IMG/VR virus record: IMGVR_UViG_3300037193_001896
Location: 1 to 37,287 of that record
DNA length: 37,287 nt
DNA from: a virus
Strand: one strand, 5' to 3'
Under the pieces are notes generated by a model. It was not told where the DNA came from and did no database searches. It worked only from the letters and a program-made list of their open reading frames with translations. Below are positions 4,433 to 28,524 of the stretch, piece after piece (within the stretch, counting starts at the first letter, position 1; every line of letters begins with the position of its first letter). The position numbers and the translations under genes were made by a program.

Positions 4433-4780
4433 TTAAATCTCGTTTTTCAATGGTTCCTGAGGGTGTTTTTTAAAATAGGGCTTCAGAATCAATTCCAGGG
4501 CGGCTCCTTCATTTGGCAGCTGCTCCCAATGTTTCAACCTCGCAATGTTGCGGGCTGTCTCCTGGCTTAAATCATAGCTCCTTTTTATTTTCTTCTCTTG
4601 CTCCGGTTTCTTTTCAACCGGCTCCGACGCCTCCTTTACTTTTTTGCCTGGCTTTTTGCCTGGCTTCGAGTCAAAAAATTCGGCTGCGTTCTCAACGTCC
4701 AGTTTTGCTCCAGACTCTTGAGCGTTGGTAATAATGTCGTCCAGCAAAGAAGCCGACGACTTTTTTTTGGGCTTTGCCAT
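4433..4780 (-). CDS. Probable centromere-binding partner of ParA (RHH C-terminus)
   Basis: 115 aa. The N-terminal half is flexible, Lys/Pro-rich and basic (GKKPGKKVK, EPVEKKPEQEKK). The C-terminal half, KRSYDLSQETARNIARLKHW through ALELILKPYF, fits a ribbon-helix-helix. A disordered basic tail followed by RHH, encoded directly behind a short ParA, is the architecture of ParG/omega-type ParB proteins of type Ib partition systems. It would bind the repeat cluster upstream of parA and stimulate ParA ATPase. The assignment rests on layout and fold pattern. Confidence 0.65.
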   Translation of the reverse strand: MAKPKKKSSASLLDDIITNAQESGAKLDVENAAEFFDSKPGKKPGKKVKEASEPVEKKPEQEKKIKRSYDLSQETARNIARLKHWEQLPNEGAALELILKPYFKKHPQEPLKNEI

Positions 4781-4785
4781 AGGTC

Positions 4786-5460
4786 TTATTTAATTTTTAC
4801 TTTTTTACAAAACTCATTGAGGAAAATGTTGAACTCATCGGAGTCTTTGCCCGGTATTATGTCTTTAATAGTGGACTTTCGCTTGTACCTGGCTTTATAG
4901 GAAATGAAGGTATTGAACAACTTAAGGCCGTGAACGCCTTTGAGTTTTTCAAGTTCATTATACTCCAAGGTCTTGTCCTTTTTATTGATCAGGCCTATTA
5001 CCTCCAGGGAATATCCTTTGGACACCTTCTTATTGAGAATTGGAGGTACCACCTGGAGAAAACCCAGCGTTGATTGGATATCGTCAAACGAACCAACCAG
5101 AGGGACAATTACAAAGTCTGATACTGTCAAAATCAACGGTACCTCTTCGCCGTCCAAACGTCCCGGACTGTCAATAAACAGGTAATCAAACTCTCCCTCC
5201 TTTTCATTAATTAGCTCCTTAAAACGGAGTAAGGGAAAGTCCGCGGTGTCCTCTTTCTTCCAGGAAAAAGGGATAATTTCAAAACCGGTACCTTTCTTTT
5301 TTTCCGCCTCTCGTAGCTTATAAATAGATTGTTGCGGGTCGGCGTCAATTACTCCAAGTTTGAGTTTTTTTCTGGAGAATAAAGCCGAGGCGACCAGCAC
5401 CAGGAGCGTAGTTTTACCGACACCCCCTTTTTGATTCATAAAGGAAATTATTTTGCTCAT
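4786..5460 (-). CDS. parA: ParA-type partition ATPase
   Basis: 224 aa, the size of short ParA proteins without an N-terminal HTH. MNQKGGVGKTTL (about 8-19) is the deviant Walker A with the signature lysine. DADPQQS (about 40-46) follows the second strand, and YLFIDSPG is Walker B. It would segregate the genome as a low-copy plasmid, together with the RHH protein encoded 6 nt downstream and a centromere site probably in the 5482-5552 repeats. Lacking an HTH, it should rely on the partner for autoregulation. Confidence 0.93.
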   Translation of the reverse strand: MSKIISFMNQKGGVGKTTLLVLVASALFSRKKLKLGVIDADPQQSIYKLREAEKKKGTGFEIIPFSWKKEDTADFPLLRFKELINEKEGEFDYLFIDSPGRLDGEEVPLILTVSDFVIVPLVGSFDDIQSTLGFLQVVPPILNKKVSKGYSLEVIGLINKKDKTLEYNELEKLKGVHGLKLFNTFISYKARYKRKSTIKDIIPGKDSDEFNIFLNEFCKKVKIK

Positions 5461-5481
5461 AAATAAATTTTATAATACAAT

Positions 5482-5552
5482 AATACATAGAATAAAGTAT
5501 TAGACAGAATACATGTAATATAATATTCTACGTATTCTATGTAATACGTATT
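5482..5552. repeat. AT-rich inverted/direct repeats upstream of parA (candidate parS)
   Basis: The stretch contains AATACATAGAATA (5482-5494), GAATACATGTAATA (about 5508-5521) and TATTCTATGTAATAC (5533-5547). They are variants of one unit, TAxTACATAGAATA, present in both orientations, with CGTATT/AATACG ends. Repeats of this kind before a short parA usually form the centromere and operator. Confidence 0.5.
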
Positions 5553-5631
5553 AGTACTGAATTTATCTCCAAAGCCTTGCCCCTCTTAGATTCCTTTGTA
5601 TTTTCGCGCTCTATTTTTTAAACTGGCTACT

Positions 5632-6498
5632 GTGATTGAAAAATTTATTGAATACGTTAGGTACGAAAAAAGGTATAGCGGTCATACCGTGCGCCTATAT
5701 ACTTTGGAGCTTCGAGCATTTGAAAAGTATGTAAAAGAAACCTTCAATATTAGCATTACTGAGGCAAAACGCGGACATTTAAAAGCCTGGTTGTACCTCT
5801 TGTCTGAAAAGGATTTGAAGCCTAAGAGCATTAATGTAAAAATTGCGGTTCTTAAATCATTTTTTGGCTTTCTATACCGTAAAGGACTAATTGAGGTAAA
5901 CCCTTCATTTAAGTTTTTCAGGTATAGAAAAGAGCGTATGTTGCCTTACTTTGTTGACGAGGAGGACTTGTCCAGGTTATTAGATGACTTGGAATTTCCC
6001 GCGGGTTTTATTGGTGCCAGGGACAAACTAATTATTGAGACACTGTACGGCACCGGTTTAAGAGTGTCAGAGCTGGCCAGCCTCAAAGACTTCCAGTTTA
6101 GCCCCTATCGAAAACAAATTAAGGTAATTGGCAAAGGGACTAAGGAAAGAATTGTGCCATTATATGACAAGCTCTCCTCCCAGGTGGAAAACTATGCCCG
6201 GCAAAAAAAGGAGATTTACCCGGAGGCGGAGTTTTTATTTCTTGGTGACAAGGGCTCCCCGATTTCCTCTCGGCGAATTGAGGACATTGTTAAAAAATAT
6301 TTGAGTCTTGTTACCGACCTGGAGAGAAGATCACCGCATATTTTAAGACATTCCTTTGCTACTCACTTGGTCAACAATGGCGCGCCAACTCCAGCAATTC
6401 AAGACCTTTTGGGACATGAGACGATTGCCACAACTCAAATTTACACTCACTTGAATTTTAAAAAATTGAAAGCCGATCATAAAAAAGGCGGATTTTAA
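5632..6498 (+). CDS. XerC/XerD-like tyrosine recombinase
   Basis: 288 aa from GTG 5632; a TTG 36 nt upstream is a less likely start. The N-terminal SAM-like core-binding domain spans about 1-90 (IEKFIEYVRYEKRYSGHTVR). The catalytic residues are all present: Arg144 (GTGLRVSEL), Lys171 (GKGTKER), His236 and Arg239 (PHILRHSFATHL), His262 (LLGHETIATT) and Tyr271 (IYTHLN). The length and the compact N-terminus are those of Xer proteins rather than long phage integrases with an arm-binding domain. It may resolve genome dimers or integrate at a dif-like site. An inverted-repeat site 0.3 kb downstream is a candidate target. Confidence 0.92.
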   Translation: MIEKFIEYVRYEKRYSGHTVRLYTLELRAFEKYVKETFNISITEAKRGHLKAWLYLLSEKDLKPKSINVKIAVLKSFFGFLYRKGLIEVNPSFKFFRYRKERMLPYFVDEEDLSRLLDDLEFPAGFIGARDKLIIETLYGTGLRVSELASLKDFQFSPYRKQIKVIGKGTKERIVPLYDKLSSQVENYARQKKEIYPEAEFLFLGDKGSPISSRRIEDIVKKYLSLVTDLERRSPHILRHSFATHLVNNGAPTPAIQDLLGHETIATTQIYTHLNFKKLKADHKKGGF

Positions 6499-7499: not shown

Positions 7500-7808
7500 A
7501 TGTACGCAAGAATTTTAGACGGGAAAAGACCCGACGAACCGGAAACGGTCAACAACCACTTTTCAACCTCGCCAGAGGAAAGAATTGAAGAGCTCAAGCG
7601 CGAAATTGCCACTCGAAAAAGGGTTTATCCGCAATGGATAATCGACGGAAAGATTGACGCCGACATTGCATCCTTACGCCTCCGGTGCCTGGAGGACACT
7701 TTGAAAGACCTTTATGACCAGAAGTACACGGGCGCGCCTGTGCACAAGCAAAACCAGCTGGCATTGTTTGAGACTCCCTCACCGATCACCAAAACCAATA
7801 GTATATGA
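7500..7808 (+). CDS. Hypothetical protein, 102 aa
   Basis: A helical, charged protein with no recognised domain. EERIEELKREIATRKRVYPQ and LRLRCLEDTLKDLYDQ look like two antiparallel helices. Its stop overlaps the start of the winged-helix gene (ATGA), so the two are coupled and may act together, possibly in replication initiation or its control. The start is placed at ATG 7500, after the inverted repeat. Confidence 0.6.
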   Translation: MYARILDGKRPDEPETVNNHFSTSPEERIEELKREIATRKRVYPQWIIDGKIDADIASLRLRCLEDTLKDLYDQKYTGAPVHKQNQLALFETPSPITKTNSI

Positions 7809-8173
7809 CCGAGACCGCACAACCAAAACTGGTTCCTTATTACAACGGAACTATGCAAAATTTTCACGACTTCGTGACCAGGTACAACCAGGACAAAGAC
7901 TTTCCTGACCAGTTGCGAAACGGACTCAAGCACACCGGAGAACACCTTGTAAGAATCTGGATTGCTTCTTACCAGTCTAACCAGACCACCAATTACAGTT
8001 TCAAAACCAATTTAAAGGCCTTGAGCACCCGGACTAACAAGAGTAAGTCCACTTTAAAACGGCATATCAAGGCTTTAACGGTTGCCGGAGTAATTGCCGA
8101 AAAAGGAGCCTCAAAAATGGCTGAGTTTCTGGTTACGATAAACGACAAAATTGTACAATTCAAAGAAAACTAA
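7805..8173 (+). CDS. Winged-helix DNA-binding protein, candidate replication or regulatory protein
   Basis: 122 aa. The C-terminal half, NLKALSTRTNKSKSTLKRHI followed by KALTVAGVIAEKG, is a typical winged helix-turn-helix of the type found in plasmid and phage initiators and regulators. The N-terminal half (about 1-60) is unassigned. The gene is followed by an intrinsic terminator and then by an AT-rich region with iterated motifs. That context favours a role at the origin; it is too short for a full Rep protein of known families, so this is inference. Confidence 0.65.
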   Translation: MTETAQPKLVPYYNGTMQNFHDFVTRYNQDKDFPDQLRNGLKHTGEHLVRIWIASYQSNQTTNYSFKTNLKALSTRTNKSKSTLKRHIKALTVAGVIAEKGASKMAEFLVTINDKIVQFKEN

Positions 8174-10863: not shown

Positions 10864-11501
10864 AGGTTTTAGAGCTCTTTTGCGGGTCAAAATCTTTCAC
10901 GAAAGAGGCCGAAAAGCTCGGTTTTGAGTGCTTTACCTCTGACGTAAATAAGACTTTCAAGCCTGATTACCTAGTCAATATTCTAAATTTTGACGTCTCC
11001 AGAGTTCCTTTCAAACCCAACATCATTTGGGCGTCTCCCCCTTGTACCTGGTTCTCGGTCGCTAGTGCCTGGAAACATTGGAACAAAAAGGACAAGACCC
11101 CAAAAACGATTTTTGCTCAATGTGGAATTGAGATTGTTAGAAAGACCATTGAAATTATTGATTACTTTAAACCGGAGGTCTGGTACATCGAGAACCCGCG
11201 GGGAATGTTACGCCACCAAGACTTTATGGACGCTTACTTGCGCCGGACGGTCACTTATTGCCAATATTCGGACGATAGAATGAAACCGACCGACATTTGG
11301 ACAAACAATAAACTTTGGATACCTCGGAAAATGTGCGAGGTCACCGACACTTGCCACAAATCGGAGGCAACTAATAAGCTAAATACTCCAGCTCAAAGGG
11401 CAACGATTCCAGCGGCCTTATGCCGGGAAATATTACTGAGTTCTCAGGCCAAAATTGAGCCACTCCACGAAAAAACAATGATTTTTTACCCGCAGCTGTG
11501 A
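10860..11501 (+). CDS. Short phage-type C5-cytosine DNA methyltransferase
   Basis: 213 aa. LELFCGSKSF (4-13) is motif I for AdoMet binding, ASPPCTWFS (58-66) is motif IV with nucleophile Cys62, and IENPRGMLR (110-118) corresponds to motif VI. The later KPTDIWTN and RATIPAALCREIL resemble the C-terminal motifs of the small phage enzymes. It lacks the large target-recognition insert of classical enzymes, so its specificity is unclear. It would methylate phage DNA, most likely against host restriction. No endonuclease gene is adjacent. Confidence 0.85.
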   Translation: MKVLELFCGSKSFTKEAEKLGFECFTSDVNKTFKPDYLVNILNFDVSRVPFKPNIIWASPPCTWFSVASAWKHWNKKDKTPKTIFAQCGIEIVRKTIEIIDYFKPEVWYIENPRGMLRHQDFMDAYLRRTVTYCQYSDDRMKPTDIWTNNKLWIPRKMCEVTDTCHKSEATNKLNTPAQRATIPAALCREILLSSQAKIEPLHEKTMIFYPQL

Positions 11502-11509
11502 CCCTCGCT

Positions 11510-11522
11510 CCAAATTTTCTTC
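11510..11522. repeat. CCAAATTTTCTTC repeat, copy 1
   Basis: Lies between the convergent methyltransferase and 83-aa genes and is followed by CCGG. A shorter copy, AAATTTTCTTC at 11576-11586, is 64 nt away inside the end of the 83-aa gene. Four more copies lie at 28.8 and 30.2 kb. Confidence 0.6.
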
Positions 11523-11568
11523 TTTCCGGAGTGGAATTTTTCAGGACATAAATTCGCCAGGTCGTCGT

Positions 11569-11820
11569 TTAAAAAAAATTTTCTTCTCCTGGTAATGCTT
11601 CTTTTGGGTGCCTGAAGTCCTCCAGGATTAAAAATTGAGATTCAATGTCCTTTACCCTTCGGCGCAATTTCTTGAGCTCTGCAACATAGAATTGCAACAA
11701 GGGGTCGTTGTTCTTTTCCGCAAGGCTGGCCAGCCCCTCAAAACTTGATATACTGGCCAGGTATTCGTGATAAAGAAACCTCACAATTGAGTCATATTTT
11801 TCTTTATAGAGCTTTTCCAT
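11569..11820 (-). CDS. Hypothetical protein after the tape measure, 83 aa
   Basis: Helical small protein (MEKLYKEKYDSIVRFLYHEY) with a basic coiled segment (FYVAELKKLRRRVKDIESQF). Its ATG overlaps the tape-measure stop (TAATG), so it is translated with it. Position suggests a small tail component or assembly factor; no family recognised. Confidence 0.65.
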   Translation of the reverse strand: MEKLYKEKYDSIVRFLYHEYLASISSFEGLASLAEKNNDPLLQFYVAELKKLRRRVKDIESQFLILEDFRHPKEALPGEENFF

Positions 11821-14402
11821 TATGACAAGCTTGCGTCGCTCCTTACCGCTTCAACGCTTGCTTGCGTCTCTTCAAATTCACTATACACAATATAGGCTTT
11901 TATATTAGTTGGTATTCTTTCAACTGCTTGCCTGGTTGCTCTCATTTCTGCAACCAAGGCCGCACCATCACCGCCCGCAATAAGAGCTCCTCCAGCTGAA
12001 TATTTTGCCGACCCGCCGTCAGTGGATGCAATTGAAGTACTTAACGGATTAATTATCCCGCCAGCTTCAAATGTTCGTCCGCCTCCAGCTTCATTAATTC
12101 GACTCGCAGCGGCTCTTAAATGAGGGTTCCTGGTCACGCCTCCAGTCATAATAATTTCATTTCCCTCCAGCTCTCCAAGTTCTCTTCCCGACTTTCGCTC
12201 AATCATTGCAATACCTCCCTCTCGGTGGCTTGCTCCTCTGACAACTCCTCCTTTTGCAAAAGTTGGTAAAGGTGTACTTGCAATTTTGGCAATATTGAGA
12301 GCTCCAGCGGCTCCAGTGATTGCCGCCAATACAAAGTTTAATGGAGGAGGCGCGCTTGACAATGCTTTGACAACGCCCAAAATGGTGTCAATAGTTGCCA
12401 TAGTGACAGCAACCGCCTTTTCCTTCTTTGCTTGCTCGGTTTTGAGCTTTTTTTGCTTCTCGTTAAATTCTTGCTCGGCCTTTGCTTTCTGGGAGTCATA
12501 AGTGTCCTGGTTAATTTTTTTGGATTTCAACTCCTGGTCAAGTTTGGCAACTCGTTCATTCTTGACCCTTTCCGCTTCTGCAATTTGTTTCTCTGTCTGG
12601 ATTGCCCCAAACTCGACAATTGCTTGGAGTCCATCTTTAGCCAGCCCCAACGCAGCGTCCTTCACCATTTGCTCGTATTGTACCCGCTTTTCGGCGTGTT
12701 CCTTGTAAAGAGCCTCGGACTTTGCAACATATTCGGCCTCAATCAAAGCCTTTTCCTCTTCGGTGAGGGCTTTGTTTTGCAATTCAATCTCCTTTTCAAT
12801 GTCCAGTTTTTCCAACCTGGCTTCCAATAGTCGGTCGGAGTTCTCGCGGGCGTTCAGTATCTCCAGGTCTGCTTTTGCCAGGTCTGCTTTATTCCTTATT
12901 GCCAGCTCTCGTTGTATTTCCTTCTCAGCGGCTTCGGCTCTGACGTCTCCAGTCTCCTTTGCAAAGTTTTTCTCCAGCTGGATTTGTTGTTGCTTATAGA
13001 CTTCAATGAGCTTTGCCCTTTGAGCCAGGCTTATTTTCTCATTTTTTTCGGTGTCCTCAATATTTCGTCTGATTTCGGCGGACTCCTGGTTGTACGATTG
13101 CTGAATTTTTGTCAATCGCTTAATCAATCCGTCCTCCAGGCCTTCCAATTGGAGGTCTTCAAGCGTCCTTTGCGCCTCCAGGAGCTTTTTATTATACTCC
13201 TCTTGAGCTTTCCTTTGATCGTCCAGGAGCTTTTTTCGCTCGTTGGCCAGGTCTTTTAATGCAGCACTTTCTTTGTTGGCTATTTGCTGACGCAACATTG
13301 CCGACTGATTCATTATCTGAATTAAAGCGATTTCGGCTTGGGCTTGCGCGTCTTTGTCGTCATCAGAGAGTAAATTTTGTTTTTCCTTTAAAGCGTTTTC
13401 GGCTTTGATAATGTCGAACCTTTCTTGAGCTAGGCGCAAGCTGTCATCAGTCATTTGCTGTTCGATTTGCCCCGCCAGTTTTAGGTTTGCAATTCTTTGC
13501 TCATCGGACAAGCTCTGGTCTTTAAATGCCAATAAAAGTTGGTCAATCTGGCCTTTCCTACGCTCATTAATTACGCTCAAGTCCCGTTCCGCGTCCTCAA
13601 GCTCCTGAGTACGCCTGGTAAGTTCCGCGGCGGCGTCAGCGGCTGTCATTGCCTCGGTGGCGAGCTCTTTTACTCCATTTACAAAATTTTTGAGTTTGCC
13701 TGAGGCGTCCGTGATTCCGGTTCCGAGTTGTATTACCCCGTCACTGATTGCCTGGAGATTTCCGCTTTTAATTGCGTCCCAAATGACAGCGAAAGCCTTG
13801 ACCCGGTTAATAAGGTTGTCCATTATCAATTGGCCGAGCTTTTTGATTGACTCAACCGGGTTTTCAATGGCATTCATTAAAAACTTTCCGAACTCGACAA
13901 CACGTCCAAGCAAAACATTAAAGATTGCTTTGAGGGCGGCCATTGCCCTTTCAAGCTTCTCTGACCCTTCGTCGGTGAGCTTGAAGTAAGAGACAAGAGA
14001 GGCGAAAGCAATGAGCAAAAGTCCAATACCAGTTCCGGCAATTGCTCCCCGGAGACTTCCAAAACCTTTTACCCCAATGTCCAGGCCTTGTTTTAGTCCC
14101 TGGAAACCGGCTTTAAAACGATCAATAAGACCGGCTCCGGGCCCCAACTTTGTCATTTCCTCAGTCATTGCGGAAATGTTGTCCTTGGTGCCTTTTACTT
14201 GTTCCTTGACGTCCGCAAATACTTCATTGACCTCCTTAATTTCGGCGGCTTTCTTTTTGAAAGCGTCGGTACCAGGTACCAGGGCTTTTAATTCTTTGTT
14301 TAGGGACTTGGAGAGGGTGTTTAATTCCGTTAGCGTTTTACCGGCCATACGGTCTCCAATAGTGACGTTTACTTGTACGTTTTCCTCACGCGGTCTTGCC
14401 AT
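11820..14402 (-). CDS. Tail tape measure protein
   Basis: About 860 aa from ATG 14402; the TTG nine codons upstream lies inside the -7 box and is unlikely. After a coiled N-terminus (LTELNTLSKSLNKELKALVP) a hydrophobic segment, AIAGTGIGLLLIAFASLVSY, lies near residues 110-140. A very long Glu/Lys/Gln/Ala coiled coil spans about 240-640, followed by a second small-residue hydrophobic region (ALSSAPPPLNFVLAAITGAA) and a Gly-rich C-terminus (KGGVVRGASHREGGIAMIER). This is the standard tape-measure layout, setting tail length. It is a monocistronic-style late unit with one small gene behind. Confidence 0.88.
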   Translation of the reverse strand: MARPREENVQVNVTIGDRMAGKTLTELNTLSKSLNKELKALVPGTDAFKKKAAEIKEVNEVFADVKEQVKGTKDNISAMTEEMTKLGPGAGLIDRFKAGFQGLKQGLDIGVKGFGSLRGAIAGTGIGLLLIAFASLVSYFKLTDEGSEKLERAMAALKAIFNVLLGRVVEFGKFLMNAIENPVESIKKLGQLIMDNLINRVKAFAVIWDAIKSGNLQAISDGVIQLGTGITDASGKLKNFVNGVKELATEAMTAADAAAELTRRTQELEDAERDLSVINERRKGQIDQLLLAFKDQSLSDEQRIANLKLAGQIEQQMTDDSLRLAQERFDIIKAENALKEKQNLLSDDDKDAQAQAEIALIQIMNQSAMLRQQIANKESAALKDLANERKKLLDDQRKAQEEYNKKLLEAQRTLEDLQLEGLEDGLIKRLTKIQQSYNQESAEIRRNIEDTEKNEKISLAQRAKLIEVYKQQQIQLEKNFAKETGDVRAEAAEKEIQRELAIRNKADLAKADLEILNARENSDRLLEARLEKLDIEKEIELQNKALTEEEKALIEAEYVAKSEALYKEHAEKRVQYEQMVKDAALGLAKDGLQAIVEFGAIQTEKQIAEAERVKNERVAKLDQELKSKKINQDTYDSQKAKAEQEFNEKQKKLKTEQAKKEKAVAVTMATIDTILGVVKALSSAPPPLNFVLAAITGAAGALNIAKIASTPLPTFAKGGVVRGASHREGGIAMIERKSGRELGELEGNEIIMTGGVTRNPHLRAAASRINEAGGGRTFEAGGIINPLSTSIASTDGGSAKYSAGGALIAGGDGAALVAEMRATRQAVERIPTNIKAYIVYSEFEETQASVEAVRSDASLS

Positions 14403-14421
14403 TGCTTCACTTTTTTGAAGG

Positions 14422-14465
14422 TAAAGCAATAGAGACTGGAGCTCATAAAGTAGGACGTGTTTGAG
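14422..14465 (-). promoter_or_regulatory. Late promoter P2 (tape measure)
   Basis: Minus strand: CTCAAACACGTCCTACT, then 20 nt to TTGCTTTA (14429-14422), the weakest -7 match of the seven. The leader to the ATG is 19 nt. It lies back to back with the promoter region of the adenine methyltransferase. Confidence 0.8.
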
Positions 14466-14482
14466 GCCTTCACTCTTGACAA

Positions 14483-14501
14483 CATAGTCAAAAATGTCTA
14501 T
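14483..14501. repeat. 19-bp ATAG...CTAT repeat, copy A (upstream of the adenine methyltransferase)
   Basis: CATAGTCAAAAATGTCTAT, 9 nt before the methyltransferase ATG, where it would overlap the promoter or transcription start. It is the same unit as the five copies found after the gene, so a protein binding here could control the gene. Confidence 0.7.
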
Positions 14502-14510
14502 ACTGCAGCA

Positions 14511-15191
14511 ATGAAAAATTCACTCATAAAGACCTATTACGGAGGTAAAGGAGGTAACGGAACCTATCAGACAATTATTAATAATATCAGACCTCACAAG
14601 GTCTTTGTTTCTCCCTTTTTAGGCAATGACGCGGTTTTGAGGTACAAAAGGCCAGCGCAATTTTCTATCGGTATTGATATAAATGAGGAAATAACGACGC
14701 TCTGGAAAGGCGTTAAAATTCCAAATTTCAAATTAATCACTGGAGACGGGCTGGAGTTCCTCAAAAATGAATCATTTGAAAAAGAAACAACTATATATTT
14801 AGATCCACCTTACCCCAAATTTTCCAGGCGCACTCAAGGGGACGTTTACAAATTCGAGTTTTCAAACGATCAACATGAAGAGCTCTTGAAGGTGGCCAAT
14901 AATTTGAGTTGTGATGTTTTGATAAGTACTTACGAAAACCCGATATACTCAAACCTTTTGAAAGGCTGGAACCTTAAAAAATTCAAAAGCACGACCAGGA
15001 ACGGAACCGCAATTGAGTTTCTGTATATGAATTTCGACAATAAAGAGGGGCTCTTGCATGACTATAGTTATTTAGGTGAGGACTTTATTGAACGACAAAG
15101 GATAAAAAGGAAAATAAACCGCTGGGTGAATAGGTTGAAAGTATTGCCACCACTGGAAAAGCATGCAATTATTAAACAGCTGCTGTCATAG
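14511..15191 (+). CDS. Dam-like N6-adenine DNA methyltransferase
   Basis: 226 aa from ATG 14511; an upstream GTG lies inside late promoter P2 and is unlikely. KTYYGGKGG (7-15) is motif X, VFVSPFLGNDAV (about 31-42) is motif I, and the catalytic DPPY stands at 98-101 in YLDPPYPKF, the order of the Dam/T4 Dam (alpha) class. The C-terminus is basic (RQRIKRKINRWVNR). The target is unknown. Its stop codon lies inside copy B of a 19-bp repeat family, and copy A covers its promoter region, which suggests autoregulation or a shared binding factor. Confidence 0.88.
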   Translation: MKNSLIKTYYGGKGGNGTYQTIINNIRPHKVFVSPFLGNDAVLRYKRPAQFSIGIDINEEITTLWKGVKIPNFKLITGDGLEFLKNESFEKETTIYLDPPYPKFSRRTQGDVYKFEFSNDQHEELLKVANNLSCDVLISTYENPIYSNLLKGWNLKKFKSTTRNGTAIEFLYMNFDNKEGLLHDYSYLGEDFIERQRIKRKINRWVNRLKVLPPLEKHAIIKQLLS

Positions 15192-15347
15192 TTAAAAATG
15201 TCTATAAGATCACATAGACGAAAATGTCTAGGAGGTCCGGAAAGCATAGCTAAAAATGTCTATGATTCCGGGAAAAGTTTTCACCATGGCCAGCATAGAC
15301 AAAAATATCTATAACCGCAGCCAGGTGACATAGTTGAAATTGACTGT
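15187..15347. repeat. Array of five 19-bp repeats downstream of the adenine methyltransferase
   Basis: Unit CATAGnnAAAAATGTCTAT at 15187-15205, 15213-15231 (ends CTAG), 15245-15263 and 15294-15312 (ATATCTAT), plus a degenerate copy at 15329-15347. Each unit is an imperfect palindrome, ATAGAC around an A-rich centre and GTCTAT. Start-to-start distances are 26, 32, 49 and 35 nt. The interval 15192-15368 has no other content. Possible roles are operator array, iteron origin or binding site of a phage protein. Confidence 0.8.
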
Positions 15348-15368
15348 GTCAGCTGTAACTTTAAAAAA

Positions 15369-15590
15369 ATGGAATTACCGAACCCCTCTTTTAGGATTGA
15401 TTTTCGCGACAAAACCAAATACATTCAATGTCTGGTCTGCAATTTAAAGTCATTCTACCCAGGAGACATTGACAACAAGTATTGCGGTCATTGTCATATT
15501 TTTCACGAAGACCCCGAAGAAATAAAAGTTTTCCAAGTCGAGTTCAATAAAAGGCTAATTCGTGAGGCCGTCAACCACCGCTCCAACTGA
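15369..15590 (+). CDS. Small zinc-ribbon protein
   Basis: 73 aa. CLVC (about 21-24) and CGHC (about 39-42), followed by HIFH, give a compact four-cysteine zinc site. The sequence around it, MELPNPSFRIDFRDKTKYIQ and YPGDIDNKYCGHCHIFHEDP, resembles a small zinc-ribbon type common in phages and plasmids whose function is not known. Its 3' end overlaps the convergent tail gene by 36 nt. Confidence 0.7.
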   Translation: MELPNPSFRIDFRDKTKYIQCLVCNLKSFYPGDIDNKYCGHCHIFHEDPEEIKVFQVEFNKRLIREAVNHRSN

Positions 15591-24532: not shown

Positions 24533-25876
24533 CTATAAAGTTTTTTGTGAGCCAGTCGGGTTTTTGTCTAGGGTCGTCAATTCAACGTCCTGGATTCCCA
24601 GGTGAATTTTTCGAACACCAACCCCCGTTATGTTTCTTTTATCGTATCCATTTAATTTCATGGCCAGCTCCAGCGGCTCCAGTAAAAGGTTTCTTGCGTA
24701 CCTGGTCTTAACCTTCGCATGAAACATATAGCTTTCGCGCTTTTCGGAGCCCGAACCAGCACCCATTTTTCCAGTAATTAAAACCCCGCTCAACGAAGGG
24801 TCGACACCCAGAGCTGAAAGTATTGCCGAGTTTGCGTCCTCGTAATCCTGGGAGTAGGCCTCATGGTTTATTTTATTGTCAATGACTTCGATTTTCCAAC
24901 CTGGCAACTCTTTGCCGGTCATTTTATCGACCGCGTATTGAGTAAAGAAAGCCTTTGAAACATTCTTTGCTCCAGACAAAAAGTTGATTATTTCGGCAAC
25001 CTTCTCCTCATACTTTTTCCTTCTAAAGTCTTGCGTATGGTCGGGCTCTGGATACAATTGTAAAAAGTAGCTCTCCGGGATAGAGATATGATATTTGATA
25101 TTGATTGAATTGTCCATGTTGGCCGACTTCCAAACCGGTATTTTGTTTGCATGTCGGAGCCACTCTTGCGCGCCAATCCAACTTGGTAGCGGGTAAAACG
25201 GATTTCCTGGAGACTTCTTTTTGAGGTGCAACATGAACTTGCCAGGCAACTTTTTCCAGGCTGGATTGTAGGTTGGCACAACCTCAATTTTTCCGTTTGC
25301 TGGTCTTCCTGTCTTCCAGTCCGCAACTCCGATTCCTTCAACTCGTCCTGACTTCGGGTTTATAATTTCCGATCGACAATCAAGAGCCTCAATACAATCA
25401 ATTGCCACAACCTTTTGACTGAGGGAACCTTTACCGGTTCTTAGTTGGGCGAAGAAATTAGAGAACCAGTGAAAGTCAATTATTGCCTCTTCCCTATACT
25501 TCTGCTCTTGCATACCGTCAAGCCAGTCTTGCAATTCAGAATCATAGAAGGGAGTCGGTATAAACTTGCCGTTTTGGAAGTCTTCATAATAAAATATCAA
25601 CTTGTCCCCTAGTGCAATTTGGTCTTTAGTATCAATTGAACCTGGCGCAAGGTTGTTATAGTAAATCAAATTCATTAAGGTGTAAGGCAACTTGTTGTCC
25701 TTACCCCAGGCGGCGAAAGTCTTTCCGACCTCGCCAACTTCAATTGGTTTGCAGAATTGCGAAAGGGGGTCAATTGTTTTTGTGTCGGGTGTCATGGACA
25801 CGGCAACACCAGTTTTATTTTTAATAGACGCCGTGTAAATTCCCTGGCCTAAATCCTCAATCTTTGCTCTCATCAA
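24533..25876 (-). CDS. Portal protein
   Basis: 447 aa. It is near the large terminase and just before a head-completion gene, where the portal is expected. Features of Bacteroidota phage portals: an N-terminal GKTFAAWGKDNKLPYTLMNL segment, a long helix-rich middle, and the sequence ILSALGVDPSLSGVLITGKM followed by GAGSGSEKRES towards the C-terminus. Twelve copies would form the DNA gate at one capsid vertex. Its ATG overlaps the stop of the 97-aa gene by 4 nt. Confidence 0.75.
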   Translation of the reverse strand: MMRAKIEDLGQGIYTASIKNKTGVAVSMTPDTKTIDPLSQFCKPIEVGEVGKTFAAWGKDNKLPYTLMNLIYYNNLAPGSIDTKDQIALGDKLIFYYEDFQNGKFIPTPFYDSELQDWLDGMQEQKYREEAIIDFHWFSNFFAQLRTGKGSLSQKVVAIDCIEALDCRSEIINPKSGRVEGIGVADWKTGRPANGKIEVVPTYNPAWKKLPGKFMLHLKKKSPGNPFYPLPSWIGAQEWLRHANKIPVWKSANMDNSINIKYHISIPESYFLQLYPEPDHTQDFRRKKYEEKVAEIINFLSGAKNVSKAFFTQYAVDKMTGKELPGWKIEVIDNKINHEAYSQDYEDANSAILSALGVDPSLSGVLITGKMGAGSGSEKRESYMFHAKVKTRYARNLLLEPLELAMKLNGYDKRNITGVGVRKIHLGIQDVELTTLDKNPTGSQKTL

Positions 25877-27060: not shown

Positions 27061-28524
27061 TTAGGCAACCTTTGCCTCATAATGTTCGGTCTCAGTGTCC
27101 ATGTGTCGAATGTATTTCGGATAAACTATATTATCAAAACAGTCGCTCAAGTGAGTCGCCCTCTCTTGCTCAATGGCTTTCCTTTCCGAGCTCTTGTCCT
27201 TTTCAAAGTCCCCTATCATGTTAGCGTTTTGCATTGAGATGATAAGGAATTTACATCGGTTCTTATTGATCACTATTCGAGGGGTGCGCGGATCGGTACC
27301 ACTGAGTAAATGATTTATTAGTATGTACTTCTTTTTATGTGGGGGGTCAAGGCCTCTTACCATGTGAGCGGGTCGGAAACCAGCCGCGGCCAGTCGCCTT
27401 TGTATCTTCTCATAAAAGGTTTGATTGTCATTCACCTGCTTATTATTCCCGTTCCGGTCACCATATACAAACACGTCCTTATTCTCCCTGGTACCATACT
27501 CTGAAATAAACTTGGTCAAGAGCTCATCTAATAGGTTAGTTGTAGACTCTTTAACATAAAACTCATTGATAATACGGAACTCCTTTCCGTGGTCTTGGCA
27601 AACTATACACGAGGTAAACTTTGCGTTGAAGTCAAAGGAGAGCTCAAGAGGGCGTTTACTGTCATTGTCCAGGTTGCCGGCCACCGTCCACAATCCCCCG
27701 TCTGTCTGTGTGTAATCGAAGGTTTTGTAAGCGGTGTGCGTGTCCTCATTGAATGCAGCATAAAAGGCGTTAGGAACTTTCTTTGGCCGTTCGTTCAAAT
27801 ACTCTACCCTGAATATTAAATCTGGTACCCTTTCCCGTGCGTCCTCCAGGTAGTGTTTACCCAATACCGCTTCGTTGTCTTTACAGGTAGCCTCAACAAA
27901 AAAATATTTATCGGGCTTCTCTTGTGCCAACTCCTCACTCTTCAGAATCCATTGGCCATTAATACTCCATGGCATGGAAGAGAAACCCATTACCGCATGG
28001 TGCAACGGGTGATTGAATGAATGAGTATTACCCCGAACCCGTGGGAATAGTACCGAGTTAAAGTCCTCCTGTTTAATCCAGCCCTTTTCATCGACGTCAA
28101 GGGCGTCCAGGTTCAAACCCCGGATTGTGTCTGGTCGATCTAAGCTTATTAATTGAATGCAATAACCATTCAGGAAAGAAATGACGTACTCAAACCGCCT
28201 TGGAGGGTCAAGAGGTTTTACCCAATTGGAGGGCGGCTTTACCCCAATGACATAGTGTCCCGCCTGGTGTTTTGTATGTTCTCTCAGGCCAGAAAGCCTC
28301 CATATTTTCTCCATCGAGGGCAAAGAGTTGTTCAAAATCTGGTTGTAAGTCAATGCGGCCAGACCGCTTTTTGCCCTGGGTAAATAACAAAATTTGTCAA
28401 TGTTAACGTGACCGATAGTCCCCGTTTTACCACTTCCAACCCCTCCTATAAAGTCCCTAAACCGTTGCTTTGAGTCTAGGAACTTTTGTTGCTTAGGATT
28501 TACATAAACCCTCCTTTTTGTCAT
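27061..28524 (-). CDS. terL: Large terminase subunit
   Basis: 487 aa from ATG 28524; the TTG seven codons upstream lies in the -7 box. The ATPase domain has Walker A GGVGSGKT (27-34) and the Walker B-like LDALDVDEKG. The nuclease domain has the RNase H-like acidic residues in LELSFDFNAKF, VFVYGDRNGNN and HLSDCFDN. It packages DNA through the portal and cuts it. The preceding promoter is its own, separate from the small subunit candidate upstream. Confidence 0.93.
   Translation of the reverse strand: MTKRRVYVNPKQQKFLDSKQRFRDFIGGVGSGKTGTIGHVNIDKFCYLPRAKSGLAALTYNQILNNSLPSMEKIWRLSGLREHTKHQAGHYVIGVKPPSNWVKPLDPPRRFEYVISFLNGYCIQLISLDRPDTIRGLNLDALDVDEKGWIKQEDFNSVLFPRVRGNTHSFNHPLHHAVMGFSSMPWSINGQWILKSEELAQEKPDKYFFVEATCKDNEAVLGKHYLEDARERVPDLIFRVEYLNERPKKVPNAFYAAFNEDTHTAYKTFDYTQTDGGLWTVAGNLDNDSKRPLELSFDFNAKFTSCIVCQDHGKEFRIINEFYVKESTTNLLDELLTKFISEYGTRENKDVFVYGDRNGNNKQVNDNQTFYEKIQRRLAAAGFRPAHMVRGLDPPHKKKYILINHLLSGTDPRTPRIVINKNRCKFLIISMQNANMIGDFEKDKSSERKAIEQERATHLSDCFDNIVYPKYIRHMDTETEHYEAKVA

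Follow-up and report, generated by a model that had tools for sequence, protein, structure and literature searches.

A palindrome array flanking a Dam-like methyltransferase gene in a viral genome is probably bound by the methyltransferase and may regulate it

The stretch of DNA analyzed here (the window) is a single virus record of 37,287 bases, from a tailed phage, in which six 20-bp palindromes flank the gene for a 226-aa D12-class adenine methyltransferase, one copy upstream and five downstream. We propose, with a probability of about 0.78, that the methyltransferase binds the array at its own gene and represses its own promoter. Covariation between protein and sites indicates that the enzyme itself very probably binds the palindromes, and the position of the sites suggests that it may control its own gene by repression. 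On this proposal, the array would gain a likely partner and a probable role in regulation, as would the upf31.0 locus of IncP-1 plasmids, which has long lacked an assignment. The proposal includes a candidate residue-to-base code for DNA recognition by an enzyme that has the Dam fold and no Dam recognition domain; natural specificity swaps exist for this code (L155 and L194, with 81% identity). The proposal also raises a question about the insertion hot spots of the IncP-1 plasmid examined, which hold cognate site clusters.

The palindromes are of the type CATAGNCA-NNNN-TGNCTATG, with 8-bp arms around 4 bp. Matches to CATAGNNAAAAATGTCTAT begin at 14483, 15187, 15213 (2 mismatches), 15245, and 15294 (1 mismatch); five matches at three or fewer mismatches compare with 0.22 expected, and none of 100 shuffles reached five. 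Copy 6 is degenerate and has 2 mismatches to the family consensus, CAYNGNCA-NNNN-TGNCNRTG, of which six sites occur in 14380-15400 versus 0.06 expected from shuffles. Successive copies are spaced by 704, 26, 32, 49, and 35 bp. Outside the array, the 37-kb contig has a single other match at two or fewer mismatches (33382), which is not of the CATAG type. The six-copy repeat claimed in a preliminary description of this DNA is thus borne out by the five matches and the degenerate sixth. Its unit, given there as 19 bp, is palindromic as stated and is a 20-mer. The five copies after the gene were correctly placed within 161 bp (copies 2-6 span 15187-15347), the first of them including the stop codon, and the remaining copy (copy 1), said to lie over the start region, is upstream of the start codon. 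A reading of the copies as protein repeats was rejected because they are out of frame with each other. A small Cys-rich open reading frame (ATG 15369; region 15324-15590) extends upstream in frame as GDIVEIDCVSCNFKK through copy 6, without a standard start; the gene may begin in an unconventional way, or the array may have truncated it.

Features of the palindrome array and the methyltransferase gene, with positions in the window
Feature	Coordinates	Strand	Sequence or remark
Sigma70-type promoter-like sequence, spacer filled by copy 1	14476..14504	+	TTGACA-17-TATACT; 11/12 consensus match
Copy 1, putative promoter operator	14483..14502	+	CATAGTCAAAAATGTCTATA
6-bp palindrome abutting copy 1	14503..14508		CTGCAG; commonest homolog 6-mer at offset 0
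D12-class adenine DNA methyltransferase, Upf31.0-like, without Dam-type target recognition domain	14511..15191	+	226 aa
Predicted recognition helix, codons 192-210	15084..15140	+	Covariation of F192, I193, and Q196 with bases 3 and 4 of the arm
Copy 2, holds methyltransferase stop codon TAG (15189-15191)	15187..15206	+	CATAGTTAAAAATGTCTATA
Copy 3	15213..15232	+	CATAGACGAAAATGTCTAGG
Copy 4	15245..15264	+	CATAGCTAAAAATGTCTATG
6-bp palindrome 1 bp before copy 5	15287..15292		TGGCCA; commonest flanking homolog 6-mer, offset 1
Copy 5	15294..15313	+	CATAGACAAAAATATCTATA
Copy 6, degenerate	15329..15348	+	CATAGTTGAAATTGACTGTG

Homologs favor the start at ATG 14511 over GTG 14457, and copy 1 (14483-14502) is therefore upstream of the gene and not inside it. 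The encoded protein matches Pfam PF02086 (E = 7e-7; 29.7 bits against a gathering score of 22), and its DPPY motif (D98-P-P-Y101) is invariant across 41 homologs. Motif I (FxGxG) is not intact: residues 34-40 read SPFLGND where the family has E-x-FLGxG, so that E34 and G40, nearly invariant in the 41 homologs, are S and D. Catalytic activity is possibly impaired by this degenerate motif (FLGND), and we therefore speculate that the window protein may be more regulator than enzyme. An AF2 model (pLDDT 90.7) begins with the catalytic fold, has no N-terminal extension, and ends in two helices (192-210 and 214-225). Its best Foldseek matches are Dam. The score against the Dam subfamily model TIGR00571 is 40.1 bits versus a curated cut-off of 114.85; residues 87-161 align to positions 169-247 of that profile, and DpnM 188-267 aligns to profile positions 88-163.

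Whole-length alignments to 40 viral homologs have 34%-43% identity, and the IncP-1 members are 40%-45% identical; homology to Upf31.0 extends over 91% of the length, at 42%-45% identity. The protein is also homologous to DNA methylases of P2-like phages, and 124 of 164 homolog records are on conjugative plasmids. Full-length members numbered zero in 395 Bacteroidota genomes and four in 398 Pseudomonadota genomes, and single-protein queries for close relatives in viral contigs found none. In the window, the gene is on the plus strand within a minus-strand cluster of tail genes, a moron-like position. Phage synteny via a 626-aa tail protein gave a weak Microcystis phage match alone, from which no empty site could be demonstrated. 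Relatives of the window terminase are mainly from Bacteroidota phages (Polaribacter, Flavobacterium, and Porphyromonas), with some others. Elsewhere in the window (4433-6498 and 1554-2228) are a ParA homolog, a small possible ribbon-helix-helix partner, and tyrosine and serine recombinases; the phage is possibly a phage-plasmid.

Copy 1 fills the spacer of a promoter-like sequence, and a location between the -35 and -10 elements is a classical repressor position. For a region of this kind, the promoter tool expects three promoter-like matches, whatever their quality, and their count alone is not evidence. In 10 different promoter contexts, the window included, the palindrome starts 7 bp past the first base of the -35 element. 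Bacteroidota promoters usually differ from TTGACA/TATAAT, and use of the window promoter is uncertain because the terminase relatives are mostly from this phylum.

Similar sites recur at the genes of homologs on IncP-1 and Acinetobacter plasmids, in P2-like phages, and in other phage contigs, often at the same promoter position. IncP-1 members have CATCGTCAGAAATGGCGATG ~53 bp upstream of the start. Acinetobacter plasmids, found through a match to the array DNA, have five copies just ahead of a gene for a DNA adenine methylase. The plasmid homologs of IncP-1, Shewanella, and Acinetobacter share this architecture, some of them with sites on either side of the gene as in the window; L070 and L071 are two loci with such a two-sided arrangement. 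Across 80 viral homologs, the density of the generic palindrome CAYNGNCANNNNTGNCNRTG (one or no mismatch) is 4.1/kb over the 150 bp that precede the gene, 0.5/kb in the next two segments, and ~0.2/kb in most others, a 20-fold upstream enrichment. When homologs were clustered at 60% identity, eight of 20 clusters had at least two sites (two or fewer mismatches) within 200 bp, compared to two of 20 in a distant control; with just eight such clusters, divergent members are poorly covered by the consensus. No neighboring gene family is common to more than three of 20 methyltransferase clusters, and the methyltransferase is the only gene shared between loci. A search of relatives for the unit, which the preliminary description had called for, thus found the repeats beside homologous genes, and absence in all relatives did not occur.

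Base 4 of the arm is constant within most loci and differs between loci. When this position was compared to all columns of the protein alignment, residue 196 ranked first and residue 193 second, and both are in the C-terminal helix (192-210) of the confident model. Residue 196 pairs with base 4 as Q with A, E with C, and N with G, and the 20-bp promoter site of the window (CAYNGNCA-N4-TGNCNRTG) carries the base that its residue 196 predicts. The best column for arm position 3 is residue 192 (F with T, Y with C), a pairing that is less strict after deduplication (23/29 for F and 33/56 for Y). Among identity-matched pairs, excluding members without a majority base, those with equal residue 196 had the same base in 797 of 797 cases and those with unequal residues in 27 of 1159. 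A rule (Q-A, E-C, H-T, and N-G) was written down before new homologs were fetched. It was correct for 49 of 59 held-out loci, compared to a permutation mean of 21.8 and a maximum of 34 in 5,000 permutations. By residue, it was correct for Q in 6/6, E in 30/32, N in 13/13, and H in 0/8; the H-to-T rule therefore failed, and H members have mixed bases, as mostly do members with S, A, or Y at 196 after deduplication. Many held-out loci are interrelated, and the 34 members left after 92% deduplication gave 6/6 for Q-A, 12/15 for E-C (three mixed), and 2/2 for N-G.

In leave-one-out tests, residue 196 predicted the base with an accuracy of 0.97 and residue 193 with one of 0.94. Relatedness explains much of this, as the nearest neighbor by whole protein predicts the base in 60 of 64 cases; the four errors of that predictor (the window, L155, L194, and L332) all agree with the residue-196 rule. 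Three of these (the window, L194, and L332) are Q/A members amid relatives with another base. The 15 nearest relatives of the window protein, the nearest being 46% identical, are all E/C and the window is Q/A; residue and base therefore appear to have switched together in its lineage. In a tree, the window falls within a well-supported group of 26 rows, 24 of them E/C, on a long branch whose exact place is unsure. L194 and L155, which are 81% identical, differ in residues and base: I193/Q196 (YIQ) with mainly A versus N193/N196 (YNN) with mainly G. Shared ancestry alone does not give this pattern, and the simplest account would be direct contact of enzyme residues with the half-site base.

The suggestion in the preliminary description that the methyltransferase is autoregulated by an array of its own thus gains strong, if inferential, support from recurrence, promoter overlap, and helix covariation. 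Each 8-bp arm (CATAGNCA) would serve as a half-site, recognized through residues 192, 193, and 196 in the N-terminal part of the C-terminal helix, with the enzyme bound as a dimer, two subunits on each palindrome. Enzyme on copy 1, between the -35 and -10 elements, would shut off its own transcription once enough had been made. Copies 2-6 would be further sites of the methyltransferase, most likely auxiliary operators (through cooperative binding or a DNA loop with copy 1) or a sink by which the protein level is set.

The preliminary description had also raised a replication or partition site, which is unsupported as the primary meaning of the array, since only the methyltransferase is common to the loci and the winged-helix gene and the ParA/ribbon-helix-helix-like pair are 6-10 kb away. 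An iteron cluster or replication origin bound by the winged-helix initiator-like protein (7805-8173) is very unlikely. This short protein does have weak matches to HTH_36 and to phrog_270 (replication initiation), and multi-copy arrays with a GACAAAAATGTC core are found in or beside HTH_36-type initiator genes (L032, L021, L034, L058, L059, and L061), some of them adjoining a DnaB-type helicase gene. Phages with such initiators (L032 and L021) were the only multi-copy loci at first sight in an early IMG/VR lead, and BLAST of the L032-type array matched phage genes, two of which are annotated as replication proteins. However, this similarity came from searching a very large collection with the window's own 16-mer, the winged-helix gene is 6.3 kb from copy 1 and has no palindrome copies within it, and initiator arrays fix GACAAAAATGTC, whereas methyltransferase arrays vary there and covary with the methyltransferase. 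Initiator iterons were set aside because the sites follow the methyltransferase. The array is not in or next to a cognate initiator gene. The in-gene GACAAAAATGTC-core arrays of L032 (2946-3034), L021, L058, L059, and L061 resemble the window sites and are a different system. Single 16-mer matches in IMG/VR were mostly chance, inside unrelated genes. We give hardly any credence to a partition (centromere) site for the phage-plasmid ParA (4786-5460) and the ribbon-helix-helix-like protein (4433-4780). ParA homology is clear and ribbon-helix-helix partition sites are often short repeat arrays, but parA is 10 kb from the array, no partition gene family is common to the homologous loci, the variable base tracks the methyltransferase and not a ParB-like protein, and the 115-aa partner has no Pfam match, its type being a guess.

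It is also highly improbable that the palindromes are structural, as hairpins of single-stranded DNA or RNA serving as single-strand promoters or as recombination sites of a mobile methyltransferase cassette. The 8+4+8 arms could fold into tetraloop hairpins, the methyltransferase module is an opposite-strand insertion in a tail operon, and numerous homologs reside on conjugative plasmids or adjoin rolling-circle initiator genes in P2-like phages. Against this, the bases at arm positions 3 and 4 match no more often inside one palindrome than across the palindromes of the same locus (position 6 has a slight excess, 0.55 vs 0.45), as protein half-sites would and hairpin pairing would not. An Rfam search gave no match, base identity follows a protein residue, and the single-strand-specific plasmid methyltransferases M.EcoGIX and M.BceJIII belong to another class. 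Palindromes were also seen in other genomes. A Bacteroidales genome (L055, 6859-7226 in reverse-complement coordinates) has at least 13 tandem TATAGCCAAAAATGTCTATA-like palindromes with a 29-bp period just upstream of a 224-aa open reading frame, and two archaeal genomes (L049 at 3255 and L050 at 5236, both in reverse-complement coordinates) have two copies immediately ahead of a pair of genes whose products resemble HEPN and nucleotidyltransferase proteins.

A 6-bp palindrome follows 118 of 187 homologous sites at offset 0-1 (63%; ~3% expected). In homologs L076-L155 these are mostly CTGCAG, TGGCCA, and GGTACC, and also CAGCTG and CTCGAG. One IncP-1 plasmid, pYKAM033 (L347), was scanned in full and has 15 cognate CATCG-type sites (none in shuffles). 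Most of them fall in clusters behind trfA, next to traM, in the traC-parA interval, and at the methyltransferase. The clusters away from the gene are at 1280-1463, 11483-11583, 25732-25866, 27613-27676, and 28205, and on this plasmid CTCGAG and GTCGAC occur only inside them. Three clusters begin just past terminator-like T-runs. The parA-traC interval of IncP-1 plasmids is a described recombination hot spot (PMC4914505), and the off-gene clusters coincide in position with insertion hot spots of IncP-1 plasmids. Because the same sites are also clustered away from the methyltransferase gene, autoregulation is not the whole function on this plasmid. A tentative extension is that the methyltransferase and its arrays form a mobile-element DNA-binding system, in which the enzyme would occupy cognate clusters interleaved with restriction-site-like 6-bp palindromes. 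On pYKAM033 such clusters would also mark boundaries that follow terminators. The arrays could then act as insulators, as joints that are protected or cleavable, or as sites where exchanged modules land, and a few helix residues would re-set their specificity. We consider it unlikely that the sites are instead methylation targets or protection hubs, with adenines in or beside the clusters, including the 6-bp palindromes, and not operators. The 6-bp palindromes do abut the 20-bp sites far above chance, and on pYKAM033 they number 38.8/kb in arrays, which also occur off-gene, versus 10.0/kb elsewhere. The promoter register of the proximal copy is conserved, however, the window sites are only at the methyltransferase's own gene, and the degenerate motif I makes catalysis doubtful.

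No description of these palindromes was found in the open-access papers searched, and priority is not certain. M.EcoGIX and M.BceJIII (PMC7736820) are likewise orphan adenine methyltransferases on mobile elements, but they are of the beta class (CcrM-like) and have no significant similarity to the window protein; identity with them was rejected (BLASTP alignment of 27 residues, E = 0.017). The models matched by M.BceJIII are instead NF010253 and CcrM-like ones, and no palindromes were found at its gene. Escherichia coli Dam, DpnM, and T4 Dam share the catalytic fold and DPPY motif with the window protein. The window protein lacks the Dam target recognition domain, a segment of ~100 residues that separates motif I from DPPY, and has an additional pair of helices at the C terminus. 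Among the methyltransferases of restriction-modification systems, M.SsoII represses its own transcription by binding an inverted-repeat site in its promoter (PMC3978073), and the window enzyme would work in a similar way, as site position and covariation suggest. M.SsoII, however, methylates cytosine at C5, has a distinct regulatory region at its N terminus, and is partnered with a restriction enzyme. The window protein has the Dam fold, belongs to the adenine enzymes, and carries a C-terminal helix; its arrays are multi-copy, no restriction partner was recognized beside it, and an N-terminal regulatory domain of the M.SsoII type was not found in it. Upf31.0 of IncP-1 plasmids has the same type of 20-bp palindrome at its promoter and, in some members, copies behind the gene as well; it differs in its half-site (CATCG, with R193/E196, versus CATAG, with I193/Q196, in the window) and in the further site clusters elsewhere on the plasmid examined (pYKAM033).
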